DNA of 64,000 nucleotides. It comes from Altererythrobacter epoxidivorans. GTDB lineage: Bacteria > Pseudomonadota > Alphaproteobacteria > Sphingomonadales > Sphingomonadaceae. Under the pieces are notes generated by a model. That model searched no databases and was not told where the DNA came from. It worked only from the letters and a program-made list of their open reading frames with translations. The stretch spans positions 1,178,001-1,242,000 of the forward strand of contig NZ_CP012669.1 of assembly GCF_001281485.1 (NCBI RefSeq), given 5' to 3'. Made by a program: the position numbers and the translations under genes. Below are positions 51,248-60,634 of this stretch, piece by piece. Positions within the stretch are counted from its first letter, which is position 1, and the number at the start of each line of letters is the position of its first letter.

Positions 51248-51674
51248 GGTGTGACACCGTTAGGGCTTTGCCAATGCTTTGCGCAATATAGTTGCGGGGC
51301 GTAATGCACGGTGCTAGCACCCGATTACCGGAAGAGGACTGCCCAAGGCATTTGATTTTCGCATGCCCGGCGCCATTCCGATATCTTCGCGGAGCTTCTC
51401 CGCAAGATCGCAATACAGGTTGACGCAGTGACACGATTCCCCTCCCCGACCATCTTGCAAACGCGTTCATCGCGTCCTGCAATCTGTTCGGGCCGGGCCG
51501 CACCGTTCGAGTGCGATCGGAGCATTGCAGACACGAAGCTTCCGCCCCGCTGGAACTCAACCCGGGGTCGATTGAACACAACCGGAGAGGTGTCGAACAC
51601 CGCCGGTTTCCCTACATTTGCGCGCAACCTGGCCCGGTCACTGGCCCCGCCCGGCTGCGCCTGGAGAATTCATA
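51248..51674 (+). other. 427-bp gap holding the likely long RNase E leader
   Basis: Between divergent amidase and rne genes. No convincing gene is seen. It contains one strong hairpin (51383-51408), listed separately. RNase E of many bacteria controls its own level through a long 5' leader, and this gap is about the right size; the role is inferred. Confidence 0.5.
51383..51408 (+). promoter_or_regulatory. Hairpin in the putative rne leader
   Basis: ATCTT and GCGGAG pair with CTCCGC and AAGAT around a CTT loop with one bulged C: 11 bp of stem. It lies about 270 bases before the rne start. A candidate element for feedback control by RNase E. Confidence 0.45.
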
Positions 51675-54467
51675 ATGGCAACGCGCATGCTCATCGACGC
51701 GCGCCACCCGGAAGAAACGCGGGTGGCGGTGCTCAAAGGCAACCGGATCGAAGAATTTGATTTCGAATCGTCCGAACACAAACAGATCAAGGGCAACATC
51801 TACCTTGCCAAGGTAACCCGGGTAGAACCTTCGCTTCAGGCGGCATTCGTCGATTTCGGCGGCAACCGTCACGGCTTCCTCGCTTTCAGCGAAATCCACC
51901 CCGACTACTATCAGATCCCGCAGTCCGATCGTGACGCGCTTCTGGCCGAAGAGGCCGAGGCTGCCGAAGAAGAGGCTCGCCTCCGCGCCGAAGAGGAAGA
52001 GCGCGGCGAAATGCCGGGCGACGAATACGACGCCGAAAGCGAAGAATCGGCCGAAGCACTGGTCGAAGACCTCGCCGAAGACGGGCTCGAGGAAATCGAC
52101 ACCTCTGAAAAGGACCGGGTCGCCACCATCGAAGACGGTCACGTCGACGGCAATGGTGACGACGAGGATGAAGACGAAGACGATTCCGACGAAGAAAACG
52201 GCGATGACAGCCGCAAGTCGGGACGTGGCCGTCGCGGTCGTGGTCGCCGCCAGGGCCGCGGCAAGTCGCGCGCCAAGGAAGTGGACGAGGTCCGCGCCCG
52301 TCGCCTGGCCCTGCGCCGTCGCTACAAGATCCAAGACGTCATCCATCGCCGCCAGGTATTGCTGGTACAGGTGGTCAAGGAAGAACGCGGCAACAAGGGC
52401 GCCGCGCTGACGACCTACCTCAGCCTCGCTGGCCGATACACCGTCCTGATGCCGAACTCGTCGCATGGCGGCGGGATCAGCCGCAAGATCAGCTCTGCAT
52501 CAGATCGCAAGCGCCTCAAGCAGATCGTTGGCGACCTCAGCCTGCCCAAGACCATGGGCCTGATCGTCCGCACTGCAGGCCTCAGCCGCACCAAGACGGA
52601 GATCAAGCGCGACTTCGATTACCTTGCACGTCTGTGGGACGGTATACGGGAGAAAACGCTGGCTTCGGCTGCACCGACGCTGATCCATTCGGATTCGGAC
52701 CTGATCAAACGCGCGATCCGCGACATCTACAACCGCGATATCGAGGAAGTCGTGGTCGAGGGTGAAGAAGGCTACAAATCGGCCAAGCAGTTCATGAAGC
52801 TGCTGATGCCGAGCCACGCCCGCCGCGTGAAACCCTATTCCGACCCCATGCCGCTGTTCCAGCGCTATGGCGCCGAGGACCAGCTGCGTGCGATGTACGA
52901 TCCTGTCGTGCAGCTCAAATCGGGTGGCTATCTCGTCATCAACCCGACCGAAGCGCTGGTTTCGATCGACATCAACTCCGGTCGTTCGACCAAGGAGCAC
53001 GGCATCGAACAGACCGCCGTTGCGACCAACGTCGAAGCGGCGAAGGAAATCGCCCGCCAGCTGCGCCTGCGCGACATGGCCGGTCTGGTCGTCATCGACT
53101 TCATCGACATGGAATACAATTCCAACACGCGCAAAGTCGAAAAGGCGATGAAGGATGCGCTGAAGCACGATCGTGCGCGTATTCAGGTCGGACGCATTTC
53201 GGGCTTCGGCCTGATGGAAATGAGCCGCCAGCGCCTTCGCACCGGCGTGCTCGAAGCAACGACCCGCGACTGCCCGCATTGCGATGGAACGGGCCTCGTT
53301 CGCACCGCAAGTTCCGCCGGTCTTTCGGCTCTCCGCCTGATCGAAGACGAAGCTGCCAAGGGCAAGGGAACGATCATCCGCCTCGGCGCAAGTACCGAAG
53401 CTGCGATCTATCTCCTCAATTCGAAGCGCGCCGACCTCGCCGAAATCGAGGATCGTTACAATGTGACGGTCGAAGTAGTGCCGGAAGGCGAAGACGAAGG
53501 CGCGAAAATGACGGTTACGAGCATGGGCCCTCGCCCGTCTTCGGCACCGAAATTCGAACCGATCGTCGAAGACGACGACGATGACGACGACATCATCGAC
53601 GATGAAACCGACGAGGATGATCGCGAAGAGCGCGAAGATCGCGATGATGACGATGACGGTTCGAAGAAGAAGCGCCGTCGCCGCCGCCGTGGTGGTCGCG
53701 GGCGAAACAAGAACCGCGGTGAGGACCAGGGCGACGAATCGTCGAATGACGATGCCGACGAAGAGCAGGATGAATCCCGTTCGAATGGCGACTCCGACAC
53801 CGATGAAGATGGCGCACCGAAGAAGAAGCGCCGCCGGAGCCGTGGTGGACGCCGCCGTCGCAAGAACCGCGAGGATGGCGAAACCGCCGATAACGCCGAG
53901 ACGGTCGAAGATGCGGTAGAAGCCTCTGCGGACAAGGCGGAAGACATCGCGGAGAAGGTAACGGACGATATCGCCGTCGTCGGTGCCGCATCTGATGACG
54001 CCGAAGCGACCGACGAGAAGCCCAAACGCAAGCGCGCGCCCCGCAAGAAGAAAGCGGCGGACGAAAGCGAAGCGGTACAGGCTGAACCGGCCGAAACTGG
54101 CGAGGCCTCCGAGGAACCGGCTGAAAAGCCGAAGCGCAAACGTGCACCTCGCAAAAGGAAGGTCGAAGAAGCAGCTGAAGAGGTGAAGGAACAGCTGACC
54201 GACGACATCTCCGTCACCGCAACTACCGAAGCCCCTTCGGACACCGGAGACGAAGCAGAAGCTGCGCCGAAGAAGAAGCCAGCGCGCAAACGCGCACCGG
54301 CCAAGTCCAAGGCAAAAGCCGCCGATGGTAGCGAGGAAAAAGCCGAAGCATCCGACGCCCCCAAGGTCAAACCGGCGGCAAAATCGGAGACGCCAACTGA
54401 CGGAGGCGATGGCTCCGACGACGGCAAGCCGCGTCGCGGTTGGTGGCAGCGCACCTTCGGGGAGTAA
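51675..54467 (+). CDS. rne: Ribonuclease E
   Basis: 930 residues. The S1 domain opens the protein (KGNIYLAKVTRVEPS) and is split by an acidic then basic insert of about 120 residues (about 85-205). The catalytic core has SIDINSG with Asp432 and VIDFIDME with Asp475/478, and the zinc link CPHC at 533-536. The C-terminal third is disordered: Asp/Glu runs, Arg-rich patches and repeats of KPKRKRAPRK, a degradosome scaffold by analogy. ATG at 51675 has GGAG upstream; the open frame begins earlier without support. RNase E starts mRNA decay. Confidence 0.96.
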   Translation: MATRMLIDARHPEETRVAVLKGNRIEEFDFESSEHKQIKGNIYLAKVTRVEPSLQAAFVDFGGNRHGFLAFSEIHPDYYQIPQSDRDALLAEEAEAAEEEARLRAEEEERGEMPGDEYDAESEESAEALVEDLAEDGLEEIDTSEKDRVATIEDGHVDGNGDDEDEDEDDSDEENGDDSRKSGRGRRGRGRRQGRGKSRAKEVDEVRARRLALRRRYKIQDVIHRRQVLLVQVVKEERGNKGAALTTYLSLAGRYTVLMPNSSHGGGISRKISSASDRKRLKQIVGDLSLPKTMGLIVRTAGLSRTKTEIKRDFDYLARLWDGIREKTLASAAPTLIHSDSDLIKRAIRDIYNRDIEEVVVEGEEGYKSAKQFMKLLMPSHARRVKPYSDPMPLFQRYGAEDQLRAMYDPVVQLKSGGYLVINPTEALVSIDINSGRSTKEHGIEQTAVATNVEAAKEIARQLRLRDMAGLVVIDFIDMEYNSNTRKVEKAMKDALKHDRARIQVGRISGFGLMEMSRQRLRTGVLEATTRDCPHCDGTGLVRTASSAGLSALRLIEDEAAKGKGTIIRLGASTEAAIYLLNSKRADLAEIEDRYNVTVEVVPEGEDEGAKMTVTSMGPRPSSAPKFEPIVEDDDDDDDIIDDETDEDDREEREDRDDDDDGSKKKRRRRRRGGRGRNKNRGEDQGDESSNDDADEEQDESRSNGDSDTDEDGAPKKKRRRSRGGRRRRKNREDGETADNAETVEDAVEASADKAEDIAEKVTDDIAVVGAASDDAEATDEKPKRKRAPRKKKAADESEAVQAEPAETGEASEEPAEKPKRKRAPRKRKVEEAAEEVKEQLTDDISVTATTEAPSDTGDEAEAAPKKKPARKRAPAKSKAKAADGSEEKAEASDAPKVKPAAKSETPTDGGDGSDDGKPRRGWWQRTFGE

Positions 54468-55247: not shown

Positions 55248-56015
55248 TTACCGTCCCTCTGCCATTAGCGCGCGGACCAGTTCGAGATCCTGCGGCTTGT
55301 CGACATCGACCGCTGCAAGCCCGTCACGCGCTGCCACTAGCTCGCTGCGAATGCCGATGCGCTGGCCGATCCGCCTGATCGCGTCTGCCATGCTCAACCG
55401 GCCGAAGAGATATGCCAGCAACATTCCCGGCCCGATCTTCGCGACCATGCGCCATGGCTTCTTGCGGTCCTGTTCGATCCGCATCCACAGCCGGATGGCC
55501 TCGCGGGACCGAGGCGTCTTGAGGTAAAACAGGTTGCAGCCCGACCACTCGCCATCGCCGAGCTTGAGGTAGGTGCGCTTGTTGCCCGGCAGTGCCTCCT
55601 CGACCGCACGACGCGGAGCCAGCATGACGCCAAGGTCCGCCGCCTCGGGCGTATCGTCGATGCATTGCCGTATCCAGTCGGGCCGGAGCAGCGCGTGGTC
55701 GCTTGTCGTCACGAGCATGGGCGCGCCGAAGGCTTCGAGGGCATTATGAACGCTCTGGCTGGGACCGGTAGCAGGCACCATGCATTCGGCGCCCCTGGCT
55801 TCCGCAATCGCGACGACCGCTGCATCATCGGCCAGCACGACGATCCTTTCCGGTCCTGCGCCCCGCACGGCATCGATAACGCGGTCGAGAACGGTCCGCC
55901 CTCCGACATCTAGCAGTGCCTTGTGCGAAACACCCTCTGCCGATGCCAGGGGATCGCCACCGGGACGAGTCCCGGCAAGGATCAGGGCTGTCACGCGTTC
56001 ATTGGCGGTGGTCAT
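55248..56015 (-). CDS. MobA-like NTP transferase domain protein
   Basis: 255 residues with a nucleotidyltransferase fold: ALILAGTRPGGDPLA (variant glycine loop), KALLDVGGRTVLDRVIDAV, LVTTSDHALLRP (metal-binding Asp) and a C-terminal VDVDKPQDLELV. It is probably an enzyme that activates a phospho-compound with a nucleotide, or the lone partner domain of the CDP-alcohol transferase encoded next to it on the opposite strand (starts 115 bp apart). Known two-domain polyol-phosphate enzymes have just this pair fused. The substrate is unknown. Confidence 0.78.
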   Translation of the reverse strand: MTTANERVTALILAGTRPGGDPLASAEGVSHKALLDVGGRTVLDRVIDAVRGAGPERIVVLADDAAVVAIAEARGAECMVPATGPSQSVHNALEAFGAPMLVTTSDHALLRPDWIRQCIDDTPEAADLGVMLAPRRAVEEALPGNKRTYLKLGDGEWSGCNLFYLKTPRSREAIRLWMRIEQDRKKPWRMVAKIGPGMLLAYLFGRLSMADAIRRIGQRIGIRSELVAARDGLAAVDVDKPQDLELVRALMAEGR

Positions 56016-56130
56016 AGGGTGCCCATAATCAACGCAGAAGCCATCGCACAGCCCCTCGTATGGGTTTTGCCTGTCAGTATCGCCTGCCTAAGGCATTGCC
56101 CAGCTTCACCGGGCCGCCTAATCCCGCGCC

Positions 56131-57267
56131 ATGACCAGCAACAATTCCATGCCTGCCATCGAAAGCATCGGACAGAACCCGACCAAGCTTTGGGGCCTGA
56201 CAATGCAGGAGCGCACGCGCCGCCTCGGGGCAACGCTCGGTCTCGATGGCAGCGACTCCTCATCCGCAATTCTCGTGAACGCGCAATACACTGCCGATCC
56301 TGCCTGGGTGCGACATGTGGTGGCGCATCCAGGTTATGTGCTGACGGTGGATGGAGTGCCTGCCCTCGCCCATGCGCGAACCCCGGAAGAGGCGCAATCC
56401 ATCCGCAACGCGATAAACGCGGCCACGGGTATCGCCGACACGGGTGCGCTCAATATCGTCCGTTTCGAGGACGGCCCCACGATCGAGAACAAGCAGTTGA
56501 GGAAGCGCGAGACCCCGTTCCTCATGAAGCTTGAGCCGGCCTCCGTTCGCACCATCGAGCGTGCCAGCTATTTCGGCGCCTACAAGGGCGTCACGGACAT
56601 TCTGACCAAGTATCTCTGGCCGGAATGGGCCCTCGTCCTGACACGGATGGCCGCCAAGGTCGGCATGACGCCGAACATGGTCACGGCCATCGGCGCGATC
56701 CTGTGCGTCGCTGCGACATTCGCCTTTGCCTACGGTCATTACTGGGCCGGCATGGCGATGGGCCTCGTTTTCATGGTGCTCGACACGGTCGACGGCAAGC
56801 TCGCTCGTTGCACCATCACTTCGAGTTGGTGGGGCAATATCTTCGACCATGGGATCGACCTCGTCCACCCGCCTTTCTGGTGGTGGTTCTGGGCAACCGG
56901 CCTCGTTTACTGGGGCCTAGAACTCGACGACCGGACGTTCTGGCTGGTCCAGGCGGCCATCCAGGGGGGCTACCTCGTCCAGCGCCTGATCGAAGGCGTG
57001 TTCATGCGCCGTAACGGGATGATGCACATCCATGTCTGGCGGCGGTTCGACAGCCAGTTCCGCCTGATCACGGCGCGTCGTAACCCCAACATGGTGATCC
57101 TGTTCGTTTCGATGCTGTTCGGCCGGCCCGACCTCGGCATCATCGCCGTCGCCTGGTGGACCGTCGCATCGCTCGCCGTGCATGTGGTACAGCTGGTCCA
57201 GGCGGAAATCGCCCGCGCCAGGAAGGGTGCGCAGCTCACGAGCTGGCTCGCAGGAGACGATGCATGA
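56131..57267 (+). CDS. CDP-alcohol phosphatidyltransferase family protein
   Basis: 378 residues. The C-terminal 240 form the membrane enzyme domain with the exact signature DxxDGxxAR-x8-GxxxDxxxD, seen as DTVDGKLAR at about 216-224, then GNIFDHGID. The preceding segment (TIERASYFGAYKGVTDILTKY) is like the linker in inositol-phosphate transferases. The N-terminal 130 residues look like part of a nucleotidyltransferase without its loop. It should join a CDP-activated alcohol to another alcohol or lipid. The HIT gene overlaps its stop (ATGA). Confidence 0.85.
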   Translation: MTSNNSMPAIESIGQNPTKLWGLTMQERTRRLGATLGLDGSDSSSAILVNAQYTADPAWVRHVVAHPGYVLTVDGVPALAHARTPEEAQSIRNAINAATGIADTGALNIVRFEDGPTIENKQLRKRETPFLMKLEPASVRTIERASYFGAYKGVTDILTKYLWPEWALVLTRMAAKVGMTPNMVTAIGAILCVAATFAFAYGHYWAGMAMGLVFMVLDTVDGKLARCTITSSWWGNIFDHGIDLVHPPFWWWFWATGLVYWGLELDDRTFWLVQAAIQGGYLVQRLIEGVFMRRNGMMHIHVWRRFDSQFRLITARRNPNMVILFVSMLFGRPDLGIIAVAWWTVASLAVHVVQLVQAEIARARKGAQLTSWLAGDDA

Positions 57268-57692
57268 ACGAGACGATCGAGAAATTCGGCTATCCCGGAA
57301 CGCTGCTCGCAGAATTCGAGCATTGGGTCATCCTGCTACGACCCGCCCAGCCTACTCTGGGCAGCCTCGTCCTTGCGGCCAAGTCCGATGCGACCGAGTT
57401 TTCGGCTTTGCCGGCAGAAGCGCACGCCGAACTGGCGACGGTGACGAAAGCCATCGAAAGCGCACTGCGGGCCTTCGTCGATTACGCCAAGATCAACTAT
57501 CTGATGCTGATGATGGTTGACCCCAACGTCCATTTCCACGTCATCCCCCGCTACGAGGGGTCACGCGAATGGAACGATGTCGAATTCGTCGACGTGGGTT
57601 GGCCGAAGCTACCCGACCTCGGTCATGCCGTCGCACTCGACGCCAGCCAGATCGACGCGCTCAAGGAAAAACTCGCGCCTTTACTCGGCTAG
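57264..57692 (+). CDS. HIT family nucleotide-binding protein
   Basis: 142 residues with the histidine-triad-like motif in NVHFHVIPRY and the family FEHWVILLRP strand and helix. HIT proteins hydrolyse or transfer nucleotides from NMP-linked compounds. The gene overlaps the CDP-alcohol transferase gene by four bases, so a role with CDP-linked intermediates is likely, for instance removal of side products; that is inference. The convergent nucleotidyltransferase gene starts its stop at the very next base. Confidence 0.85.
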   Translation: MNETIEKFGYPGTLLAEFEHWVILLRPAQPTLGSLVLAAKSDATEFSALPAEAHAELATVTKAIESALRAFVDYAKINYLMLMMVDPNVHFHVIPRYEGSREWNDVEFVDVGWPKLPDLGHAVALDASQIDALKEKLAPLLG

Positions 57693-58439
57693 TCAGCCCT
57701 CGGCGACCCAGCGTTCGGTCAAGGCCGTCGCAGTCTCGATATCGTTGAGGAAATCGACCTCGGCCCAGTCCATCCCCTCGATCGACTTCGTGCCGACCTT
57801 GCCGCTGTCGGCGATCATGTCGATGACTTTCAGGTACCAGTGATTGACGCCGTCAGCGGTGCGCATTGTCTGCCGCACGGTTTCCCGGAACAGTTCCGCG
57901 CCTTCACCGCGGAATGCGAGGAAGCCGATTGATTCCGAATTGCTGACTTCGGCCGTCAGGGTCTTGCCGATCCGGGCCAGACGCCCGTTCTCGCCGCGGC
58001 TGACCTTCATGTCGTCGCTGTCGTAGGAATCCTTCACATCGACCGTGACCGCGATCGGCCAGTCCGATCCTTCCTGTACACGGCGCACGATGTCTTCCGA
58101 CACCAGCGTATCGCCGTTGAGGATGAGGAAATCTCCCTTCATCTGTTCGCGAACGATCCAGCAGGAGCCGAGATTGTCGGCAACCTTGAAGAACGGATTG
58201 AAATGACAGGTGATTTCCACACGCGGATCACGGATCTCCGCAAGCCTCGCTTCCACCATGTCGGTCATGAAGCCGGTCACGACATCGATGCGCTTTACAC
58301 CGCCACGGGCGAGCATCTCGATCTGCCATTCGATCAAGGTCTTGCCCGAAAAATCGATCAGGCACTTCGGACGTTCGGCAGTCAGCGGCAATAGTCGCGA
58401 GCCTTGGCCCGCGCTCAGGAGAATAGCATGTTCGATCAT
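57693..58439 (-). CDS. Sugar/polyol-phosphate nucleotidyltransferase (phosphocholine or inositol cytidylyltransferase-like)
   Basis: A 248-residue nucleotidyltransferase with a full active-site set: LLSAGQGSRLLPLT, RPKCLIDFSGKTLIEWQIE, FLILNGDTLVS (Asp metal ligand) and a later VNHWYLKVIDM with the second metal site. The ERPKCLI pattern is nearest to LicC- or IPCT-like enzymes that make CDP-choline or CDP-inositol. I chose the ATG at 58439. It probably supplies the CDP-alcohol used by the transferase at 56.1 kb. Confidence 0.82.
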   Translation of the reverse strand: MIEHAILLSAGQGSRLLPLTAERPKCLIDFSGKTLIEWQIEMLARGGVKRIDVVTGFMTDMVEARLAEIRDPRVEITCHFNPFFKVADNLGSCWIVREQMKGDFLILNGDTLVSEDIVRRVQEGSDWPIAVTVDVKDSYDSDDMKVSRGENGRLARIGKTLTAEVSNSESIGFLAFRGEGAELFRETVRQTMRTADGVNHWYLKVIDMIADSGKVGTKSIEGMDWAEVDFLNDIETATALTERWVAEG

Positions 58440-58550
58440 GGTGCAGCCCTTTAGGCGCACAGTGTGCGACTAGCAACGGCCCGAAGGAATGTGGCTATTG
58501 CAAGCGAGGTGCTTGCGCGTTGAGACGCGCTCGTCCAATGCGCAAAATCC

Positions 58551-59903
58551 ATGCAGGACAATGCCCAAGCCACCCGTGAACCGCGTTCGTTGATGTCGCG
58601 AATGCTCACAAACGTCGCCTGGCTGGTGGGCGGCAAGGGTTTCGGCGCGGTTTGTTCGCTGATTTACCTCGCGATCCTGACCCGTTCGCTCGGTCTCAAG
58701 GACTTCGGCCACTTCTCGCTGATCTTCGGTACCGCGCAGGCGCTTATCGCCATTGCCGGGTTCCAGACCTGGCGCACGGTAGTCCGTTTCGGTGTCCAGC
58801 ACATCCATGACGGGGACTGGGACGGTTTCGGCCGCCTCAGCATGATGGCCTTCATCCTCGACGTCGTCGGTGCGCTGATCGGTTGTGCGATCGCCTATGT
58901 CGTTTTCTATCATTTTGCAGCCGAGTTGAGCCTCAATCCTCGCCTCATCGACACGGCATTCTGGTTCAACGTGGCGGCGCTGTGGGCCCTCGTTTCTGCG
59001 CCTACCGGCATCGTGCGTGCCCTCGATCGCTTCGACATCGCCGTTTATGTCGAGGCTATCGTCCCGGCAGGGCGCCTGATTGCTGCTGCCGTCATTGCCC
59101 TTACCGGACCCAGCCTTGCACGTTTCCTCATCGCATGGGCAATCATCGACCTCTTCGAAGCGGCGATATACTGGATCGTCGCCCGGCGCCTCAGTCCGCA
59201 ATCGATCCGGTTCAAATTCCTCGGCAGTGCTTTCCAGGCTCGCCATGAAAATCCGGGCCTGATCCGCTTTTTCGGGATCACCTACCTCAGCGCAACATTG
59301 GAAGCCGTTTTCCGACACGGGCCTTTGCTCGCAGTCGGATACTTCGTCGGAACGAGCGCAGCCGGCATATACCGCCTCGCTCACCAGCTGGCTCAGGGCC
59401 TGTCGAAACTTTCTGGCCTGCTCAGCCGCGCAGCCTATGCCGAAATCGCCCGTGCAAGGGTGGCTTCGGCAGCGCAGGAGTTCCGCCGGCTGGCATGGCA
59501 GACGACACGCCTCGCCGGTGTGGGCGGCGCCTTGGTCGTGATTTTCGTTTCCGCAGTCGGCGGCCATATCCTCGCGCTTCTCGGCGGGGAGGAATTCCGC
59601 ATGGGCTATACAATCCTGATCCCGCTGACGGTGGTTTCGAGTATCGAACTCGCCAGTGTCGCGTTCGAACCCGTCCTGCATTCGACCGGCCGCGCGCGCC
59701 TGTCGCTCCTTGCCCGCTTCTTCACCGTGTTAACGGCAGGTATCGCCCTCGTTATCCTCGTTCAGCATTACCAGGAACAAGGCGTCGCATGGGCGCTCGT
59801 GATCGGCGCAGCCGTTGGCTATGTCGTAATGGGATTGATGGCTTACCTCACTTTGAAGCGGGACCTCGGCAAGGTCGATCTTGCCAGCGGGGAAACCATC
59901 TAG
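58551..59903 (+). CDS. Polysaccharide biosynthesis flippase (Wzx/MOP family)
   Basis: 450 residues with twelve to fourteen predicted membrane helices. The start MLTNVAWLVGGKGFGAVCSLIY and the segment LTRSLGLKDFGHF are typical of O-antigen or exopolysaccharide lipid flippases. It moves lipid-linked glycans across the inner membrane. It stands alone here, with no glycosyltransferases beside it, so the cargo is unclear; the CDP-alcohol genes next door may provide it. It overlaps the convergent reductase gene by four bases. Confidence 0.85.
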   Translation: MQDNAQATREPRSLMSRMLTNVAWLVGGKGFGAVCSLIYLAILTRSLGLKDFGHFSLIFGTAQALIAIAGFQTWRTVVRFGVQHIHDGDWDGFGRLSMMAFILDVVGALIGCAIAYVVFYHFAAELSLNPRLIDTAFWFNVAALWALVSAPTGIVRALDRFDIAVYVEAIVPAGRLIAAAVIALTGPSLARFLIAWAIIDLFEAAIYWIVARRLSPQSIRFKFLGSAFQARHENPGLIRFFGITYLSATLEAVFRHGPLLAVGYFVGTSAAGIYRLAHQLAQGLSKLSGLLSRAAYAEIARARVASAAQEFRRLAWQTTRLAGVGGALVVIFVSAVGGHILALLGGEEFRMGYTILIPLTVVSSIELASVAFEPVLHSTGRARLSLLARFFTVLTAGIALVILVQHYQEQGVAWALVIGAAVGYVVMGLMAYLTLKRDLGKVDLASGETI

Positions 59904-60634
59904 GCGGGGATCTCCCTTCCCTGCCAATCGAAGACGTTACCGCTATTGTGCGGTTCGAGCTTGCCGATGACTGCCAGCAAGTTGCAAGCCGCATCGTCCG
60001 GGTCGGTCAGTTGTCCGGCAGGAAGGTTCGCCTGGAACGGTTTCGAAAGGTTCGAATTGACCGTCCCCGGATGCATACCGACAATGATCGCATGCTCATG
60101 CGTGCGTCGCATTTCGATGGCGAAATTCCGGATCAGCATATTGAGCGCTGTCTTGCTCGCCCGGTAACTGTGCCATCCGCCTAACCTGTTGTCGGAAATC
60201 GATCCGACGCGCGCCGATAGTGCTGCAAAGACACTGCGCCTGTCGCGCGGCATGATGGGCAGGAAATGCTTCGCAATCATAGCCGGGCCGATGGTGTTGA
60301 GCGCGAATGCCTGCGCCATGGCATCGGGCGATAATTGCTTGAGCGACTTTTCCGGTCCGGTTCCTTCGGGCAACGTCAGCGATCCGGTCGCCACGATCAC
60401 ACAATCGGGCGGCACCTCTTTCAATTCTGCCGCAATCGACGCAATGGAACCTTCATCCATGAGGTCGAACCGGAATCCTGTCGCGCCTCCGATAGCGGTG
60501 CCCGAACGCGATCCGGCCATGACCGTCGCACCGCCTTCCACCAATTGCCTGCAGAGCGCGCCGCCTATTGCGCCGGATGCGCCGAAAACCACCGCACGCT
60601 GCGGCCACGGTGCCTGCTGTCCTACATCGTCCAT
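59900..60634 (-). CDS. Short-chain dehydrogenase/reductase
   Basis: 244 residues in the SDR fold. The nucleotide loop is VFGASGAIGGALC, the active-site Tyr and Lys lie in YRASKTAL, and the Ser in FAALSARVGS. PGTVNSNLSKPF is the usual post-active-site loop. It could make or reduce a sugar or polyol for the neighbouring CDP-alcohol genes, but no substrate can be named. The ATG at 60634 follows the gap with the repeat element. Confidence 0.87.
   Translation of the reverse strand: MDDVGQQAPWPQRAVVFGASGAIGGALCRQLVEGGATVMAGSRSGTAIGGATGFRFDLMDEGSIASIAAELKEVPPDCVIVATGSLTLPEGTGPEKSLKQLSPDAMAQAFALNTIGPAMIAKHFLPIMPRDRRSVFAALSARVGSISDNRLGGWHSYRASKTALNMLIRNFAIEMRRTHEHAIIVGMHPGTVNSNLSKPFQANLPAGQLTDPDDAACNLLAVIGKLEPHNSGNVFDWQGREIPA

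Follow-up and report, generated by a model that had tools for sequence, protein, structure and literature searches.

What is built by two nucleotidyltransferases, a CDP-alcohol phosphotransferase, a HIT-family protein, a Wzx-type flippase and a reductase whose genes lie side by side in Altererythrobacter epoxidivorans? The six genes occupy positions 55248-60634 of the window analyzed here, a stretch of 64,000 nucleotides corresponding to positions 1178001-1242000 of the single-contig, 2.79-Mb genome. A first interpretation from the letters alone, hereafter the sequence-only reading, saw here a possible undescribed pathway that makes and exports an uncommon phospho-alcohol head group on a lipid or glycan. 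All six reading frames are open where that reading had placed them, and its gene assignments are confirmed by the coordinates, by Pfam scores judged against curated cut-offs, and by the intact signature of the transferase:

55248..56015, minus strand: NTP3, CofC-like nucleotidyltransferase (PF12804, 56.2 bits, cut-off 27); proposed counterpart of Caulobacter CC_1153
56131..57267, plus strand: CDP-alcohol phosphotransferase (PF01066, 33.6 bits, cut-off 22); proposed counterpart of CpgA (CC_1159)
57264..57692, plus strand: HIT-family protein (PF01230, 27.1 bits, cut-off 21.5)
57693..58460, minus strand: LicC-like nucleotidyltransferase (PF00483, 51.0 bits, cut-off 21.2); proposed counterpart of CpgD (CC_1152), a CTP:phosphoglycerate cytidylyltransferase
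58551..59903, plus strand: Wzx-type flippase, proposed lipid exporter (PF01943, 34.8 bits, cut-off 28.2)
59900..60634, minus strand: SDR reductase, a neighbour and not a member (PF00106, 54.6 bits, cut-off 26.6)

NTP3, the transferase, the HIT protein, the LicC-like enzyme and the flippase probably form the head-group-extension half of a phosphosphingolipid pathway of the ceramide-diphosphoglycerate (CPG2) type, and would most likely build the distal portion of an anionic sphingolipid head group. CpgB and CpgC, encoded 1.19 Mb from the window block, would first supply ceramide-phosphoglycerate. The LicC-like enzyme would make CDP-glycerate, from which the transferase would pass phosphoglycerate onto ceramide-phosphoglycerate with release of CMP. 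NTP3 may activate another phospho-compound of this pathway, the HIT protein may cleave or recycle a nucleotide adduct from the CpgD-type reaction, and the flippase would move the lipid outward.

Such a pathway is not undescribed. It has been studied in Caulobacter (PMC11324152, PMC12275187, PMC10331486, PMC13228409), where CPG2 synthesis is assigned to the cluster CC_1165-CC_1152 (PMC11324152). CC_1160 is the ceramide kinase CpgB, which phosphorylates ceramide; a CDP-DAG-synthase-like domain is found in CC_1161, a CDP-alcohol domain in CC_1159 and a CofC-like domain in CC_1153; and CPG2, which carries a second phosphoglycerate, requires CC_1152, CC_1153 and CC_1159, all dispensable for CPG (PMC11324152). 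CC_1152 is CpgD, which converts CTP and phosphoglycerate into CDP-glycerate (PMC12275187). The same authors report orthologues spread over six regions in Sphingomonas wittichii (PMC11324152 / PMC12275187), so that CPG2 genes of sphingomonads are already in print.

The composition of the window block was defined by comparison with its relatives. A transferase scan of 84,980 species genomes returned 222 relatives, and the best 80 loci were kept; where a genus is named in the title, they belong to Sphingomonadales, at 56-82% identity. Five of the six window genes recur together in Sphingomonadales: 72 of these 80 loci carry HIT, 69 NTP3, 67 the LicC-like gene and 49 the flippase, against 7 for the SDR reductase and 3 for a methyltransferase. 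A rerun with other queries gave 68 for NTP3 and the same remaining counts. Because it occurs in 7 loci only, the reductase is a neighbour and not the sixth member that had been proposed; in 6 of the 7 it lies elsewhere, between rng and NTP3. A HAD-type phosphatase (L077:15440-16129, cluster c22) is found near the cluster in 10 of the 80 loci, and in Qipengyuania and Croceicoccus it is located between the flippase and sdhB.

The earlier view of a neighbourhood and not one operon holds. NTP3 and the transferase diverge from a 115-bp interval, the HIT and LicC-like genes abut tail to tail, the LicC-like gene and the flippase diverge across 90 bp, and the flippase and SDR genes overlap by 4 bp. 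Translational coupling looks confined to the transferase and HIT pair, which shares 4 bp (ATGA). Across the 77 loci from which both of these genes were extracted, a 4-bp overlap is present in 23 and the spacing is below 20 bp in 65.

The missing half of the pathway is found elsewhere in the same genome. An undivided ten-gene block of constant order and strands is seen in 21 of the 80 loci and consists of RPE, DUF2141, NTP3, CpgC, CpgB, transferase, HIT, LicC, flippase and an M20 amidohydrolase; these 21 are among the 49 loci that carry the flippase. In A. epoxidivorans, tblastn located a group of RPE, DUF2141, CpgC, CpgB and M20 at 2.42 Mb, with identities to Novosphingobium locus L041 of 75%, 60%, 65%, 48% and 62%, respectively. 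The window holds exactly the five block genes that are absent there, with order and strands retained. The two gene sets are complementary, and the block was therefore split in this genome or in its lineage; it appears to have been joined to CpgC and CpgB originally and to have changed its place in the genome in this lineage. The CpgB-like kinase (G000:C1:2425262-2426218) gives a 49% match and 46.7 bits to DAGK_cat; the CpgC-like protein (2424369-2425352) gives a 60% match and no Pfam match; and the two genes overlap by 4 bp. A serine palmitoyltransferase is encoded at 2.70 Mb (NF047603, 800.7 bits, cut-off 670), with an acyl carrier protein gene in the 12 kb examined around it; the pathway genes occupy at least three separate places. 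PF01066 genes number three in the whole genome.

Co-occurrence was surveyed in 99 genomes of the family, representing 94 genera. CpgB is present in 73, CpgC in 75 and NTP3 in 75 genomes, where the NTP3 and CpgB counts take in distant paralogues of 26-33%; the transferase is present in 30, LicC in 30 and HIT in 27. A serine palmitoyltransferase-like protein is encoded in all 99, in 97 of them at E < 1e-120. The 30 transferase genomes exclude G284 (raw tally 31), whose match of 1.1e-22 and 32% covers residues 110-345 only. The transferase and LicC sets are identical (LicC in 30/30 transferase genomes and 0/69 others), even though in 9 of the 30 the two genes are separated by over 6 kb or lie on other contigs. 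HIT falls wholly inside the transferase set (27/30 versus 0/69) and lies apart from the transferase in 6 of 27. NTP3 and CpgC coincide in 74 of the 76 genomes with either, with one exception each way, and the 30 transferase genomes carry CpgB in 29, CpgC in 28 and NTP3 in 29. This pattern resolves two modules, a common one of CpgB, CpgC and NTP3 and, nested within it, one of transferase, LicC and HIT. It also explains the presence of two nucleotidyltransferases, each of which follows a different module. Co-occurrence in Sphingomonadales is thus strongly positive in both the 80 loci and the 99 genomes, and the genes stay together. The two-module distribution is new here, as are the tight association of HIT with active sites of the CpgD type and the relic-like domain of the transferase described below. 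In sphingomonads, sphingolipids replace lipopolysaccharide; the marker set of transferase plus LicC-like enzyme, found in 30 of the 99 genomes, would predict which members make an extended head group and which stop earlier.

More distant genomes connect the window block to the Caulobacter cluster. Outside the family, 12 of 190 sampled Alphaproteobacteria have the transferase at 40-49%; the class survey counted 13 matches of full or nearly full length (E < 1e-60), of 42 genomes with any match. The neighbours in these Alphaproteobacteria are CpgB, CpgC, an AMP ligase, an epimerase, ACP (acyl carrier protein), serine palmitoyltransferase, a metallophosphoesterase, LptF, LptG, a fatty-acid hydroxylase, a GNAT protein, NTP3 and LicC. 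Locus L125 reads AMP ligase, epimerase, ACP, serine palmitoyltransferase, CpgC, CpgB, transferase, phosphoesterase, HIT, LptF, LptG, hydroxylase, GNAT (in the CerS position), NTP3 and LicC, which is the order given for CC_1165 to CC_1152 (PMC11324152) plus an extra hydroxylase. NTP3 in the distant clusters occupies the slot beside CerS, as does CC_1153. The likeness to Caulobacter thus includes the families (CofC-like nucleotidyltransferase, CDP-alcohol transferase, LicC-like cytidylyltransferase, lipid kinase, serine palmitoyltransferase), the gene order in undivided relatives, the active-site residues of CpgD and the presence of a gene where Caulobacter has CC_1157. Unlike Caulobacter, A. 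epoxidivorans has a dispersed pathway, a Wzx-type flippase adjoining the block, and a HIT gene carried in the transferase transcript, and the window block lacks a CC_1158-type phosphoesterase. Several Alphaproteobacteria (L117, L122, L126, L128) have, beside LptG and the hydroxylase, a second CDP-alcohol transferase paralogue of 31-36%.

Which alcohol is activated can be judged from the active site of the LicC-like enzyme. Thirteen residues have been named in the active site of CpgD (PMC13228409); placed by spacing, 11 of them are identical in the window enzyme (G12, R16, K26, N90, N110, G111, D112, M147, K161, S170 and W201), and of the other two, T93 is replaced conservatively by Ser and T88, a backbone contact, by Ala. 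The same 11 agree in 68 or 69 of 69 type-A LicC sequences. The genome has one other LicC-like match, at 30%; a paralogue from the same genome keeps 5 of the 13. The fit of the CpgD residues argues for phosphoglycerate as the substrate rather than choline or inositol, the alcohols named in the sequence-only reading.

The same sphingolipid pathway could use another alcohol, in which case the LicC-like enzyme would activate, for example, phosphoglycerol or phosphocholine and the head group would not be phosphoglycerate. The COG1213 family accepts several phospho-alcohols (PMC12275187), and Sphingomonadales have a second LicC type, type B, whose 9 rows (eight of them independent, since L142 and L058 are the same contig) all show Ser in place of N90 and Phe or Tyr in place of W201, which makes a change of substrate inside the family plausible. 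We nevertheless regard this explanation as unlikely, because the window enzyme and the other type-A rows keep the CpgD glycerate contacts N90, N110, S170, M147 and K161.

A protein of ~400 residues (L056:13292-14608 and relatives, cluster c16), with no Pfam or PDB sequence match, occurs in 40 of the 99 family genomes. Of the 23 genomes with c16 and NTP3 but without the CDP-alcohol transferase, 17 have the c16 gene no more than 6 kb from NTP3, and in G217, G231 and G255 this gene adjoins type-B LicC; the protein is possibly an alternative transferase. In another family member, G206 (locus L143), the transferase, HIT and LicC lie within ~10 kb of serine palmitoyltransferase.

LicC itself, a CTP:phosphocholine cytidylyltransferase, shares a COG1213-type fold and sequence with the window enzyme and is its closest PDB sequence (1jyk), no CpgD structure being seen among these matches. 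With a Wzx-type flippase adjacent, a LicC-type choline activation that decorates an exported surface glycan comes to mind. The match to LicC, however, spans the first half only, and the N-G-D motif is not shared there by LicC; the window enzyme differs in its CpgD-pattern active site and its partner genes; and its distribution is nested within CpgB/CpgC genomes, which leaves the choline explanation very improbable.

The transferase, too, can be compared with known enzymes. Its signature D-xx-D-G-xx-A-R...G...D...D is identical in 99/99 aligned rows (D218, D221, G222, A225, R226, G235, D239, D243), and, judged by its closest structural matches, it is not a phosphatidylglycerol- or phosphatidylserine-type enzyme. 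Its N-terminal ~140 residues have a fold like a reduced nucleotidyltransferase domain, and this front domain, short and missing the glycine-rich loop as read from the sequence, looks like an inactive relic. AF2299 and IPCT-DIPPS of Archaeoglobus likewise place an extramembrane nucleotidyltransferase-like domain ahead of the membrane transferase, whereas the window pairs its inactive-looking front domain with two complete nucleotidyltransferases as separate genes. A CDP-inositol route of the IPCT-DIPPS kind, leading to a phospho-polyol solute or an inositol lipid, can be dismissed as highly improbable, given the shortened front domain, a genome context of sphingolipid synthesis, and scores against the bifunctional enzyme model NF041135 of 24.3 bits (transferase) and 48.0 bits (LicC-like enzyme), far below the cut-off of 580. 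For NTP3, the best-scoring model is CofC, 2-phospho-L-lactate guanylyltransferase (TIGR03552), at 31.3 bits, which falls short of the cut-off of 105. From the original head-group interpretation, a CDP-alcohol pathway for an uncommon phospho-alcohol, its probable export and its retention in Sphingomonadales stand, and the claim of novelty, the membership of the reductase and choline or inositol as the likely alcohol find no support.

Several points weigh against the assignment of the block to CPG2-type head-group extension. The correspondence to CpgA, CpgD and CC_1153 rests on families, gene order and residues, and the CpgD residues were located by spacing, with offsets of 4 to 7. CC_1153 mutants still produce CPG (PMC11324152), while NTP3 follows CpgC and not the transferase. 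The flippase is missing from 31 of the 80 loci. In the family survey, G206 breaks the nesting, with transferase, HIT and LicC present and CpgB, CpgC and NTP3 unmatched at the thresholds used; G244, a fragmented assembly, has no CpgC match; and Fisher values overstate the association because the genomes are related.

The HIT protein, set aside in Caulobacter, is nominated here as a pathway component. CC_1157 was called 'probably unrelated', its mutants had no high cofitness, and Zymomonas lacks both CC_1157 and CC_1159 (PMC11324152). The terms 'HIT family' and 'histidine triad' are both absent from the main text of PMC11324152, and a search for papers that connect this protein family to sphingolipids and Caulobacter found none. 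The window protein keeps the middle and third histidines of the triad (H90 and H92, present in 80/80 aligned rows) and has Asn88 in place of the first. It matches known HIT structures weakly across the triad region (2oik, E 1.5e-5; 3i4s, 0.0023; 3ohe, 0.021) and differs from them in a conserved NYLMLMMVD stretch and in its coupling to a CDP-alcohol transferase. Among the 80 loci, HIT accompanies type-A LicC in 61/61 and type B in 0/6; L054 and L059 also lack HIT and have no LicC in reach. The transferase genomes of the family without HIT are G217, G231 and G255, the same that carry a divergent LicC (33-37%). In five other Alphaproteobacteria families, HIT directly adjoins LptF, and in three of these five it sits between the phosphoesterase and LptF, the CC_1157 slot.

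An evenly balanced proposal is that HIT is a dedicated enzyme in the synthesis of CPG2-type head groups, that its translation is coupled to that of the CpgA-type transferase, and that it acts on a nucleotide conjugate made by the CpgD-type cytidylyltransferase; its loss or replacement would coincide exactly with the exchange of CpgD for a type whose active site differs. The pathway would then comprise a CpgB/CpgC/CofC-like module and an optional CpgA/CpgD/HIT extension module. A dedicated role is opposed by the class survey. Among the 190 Alphaproteobacteria, 14 genomes bear HIT, 9 with the transferase and 5 without (G025, G056, G157, G178, G184), and no other pathway genes were found near HIT in the stretches fetched for G025, G157, G184 and G056. 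HIT is also missing in 4 of the 13 transferase genomes (G027, G037, G165, G186), of which G186 has a type-A LicC, and the HIT family extends to other Proteobacteria.

At window positions 51618-54467 lies a ribonuclease E/G-like gene with long, strongly charged repetitive regions; the large antisense frames that overlap it are probably composition artefacts.
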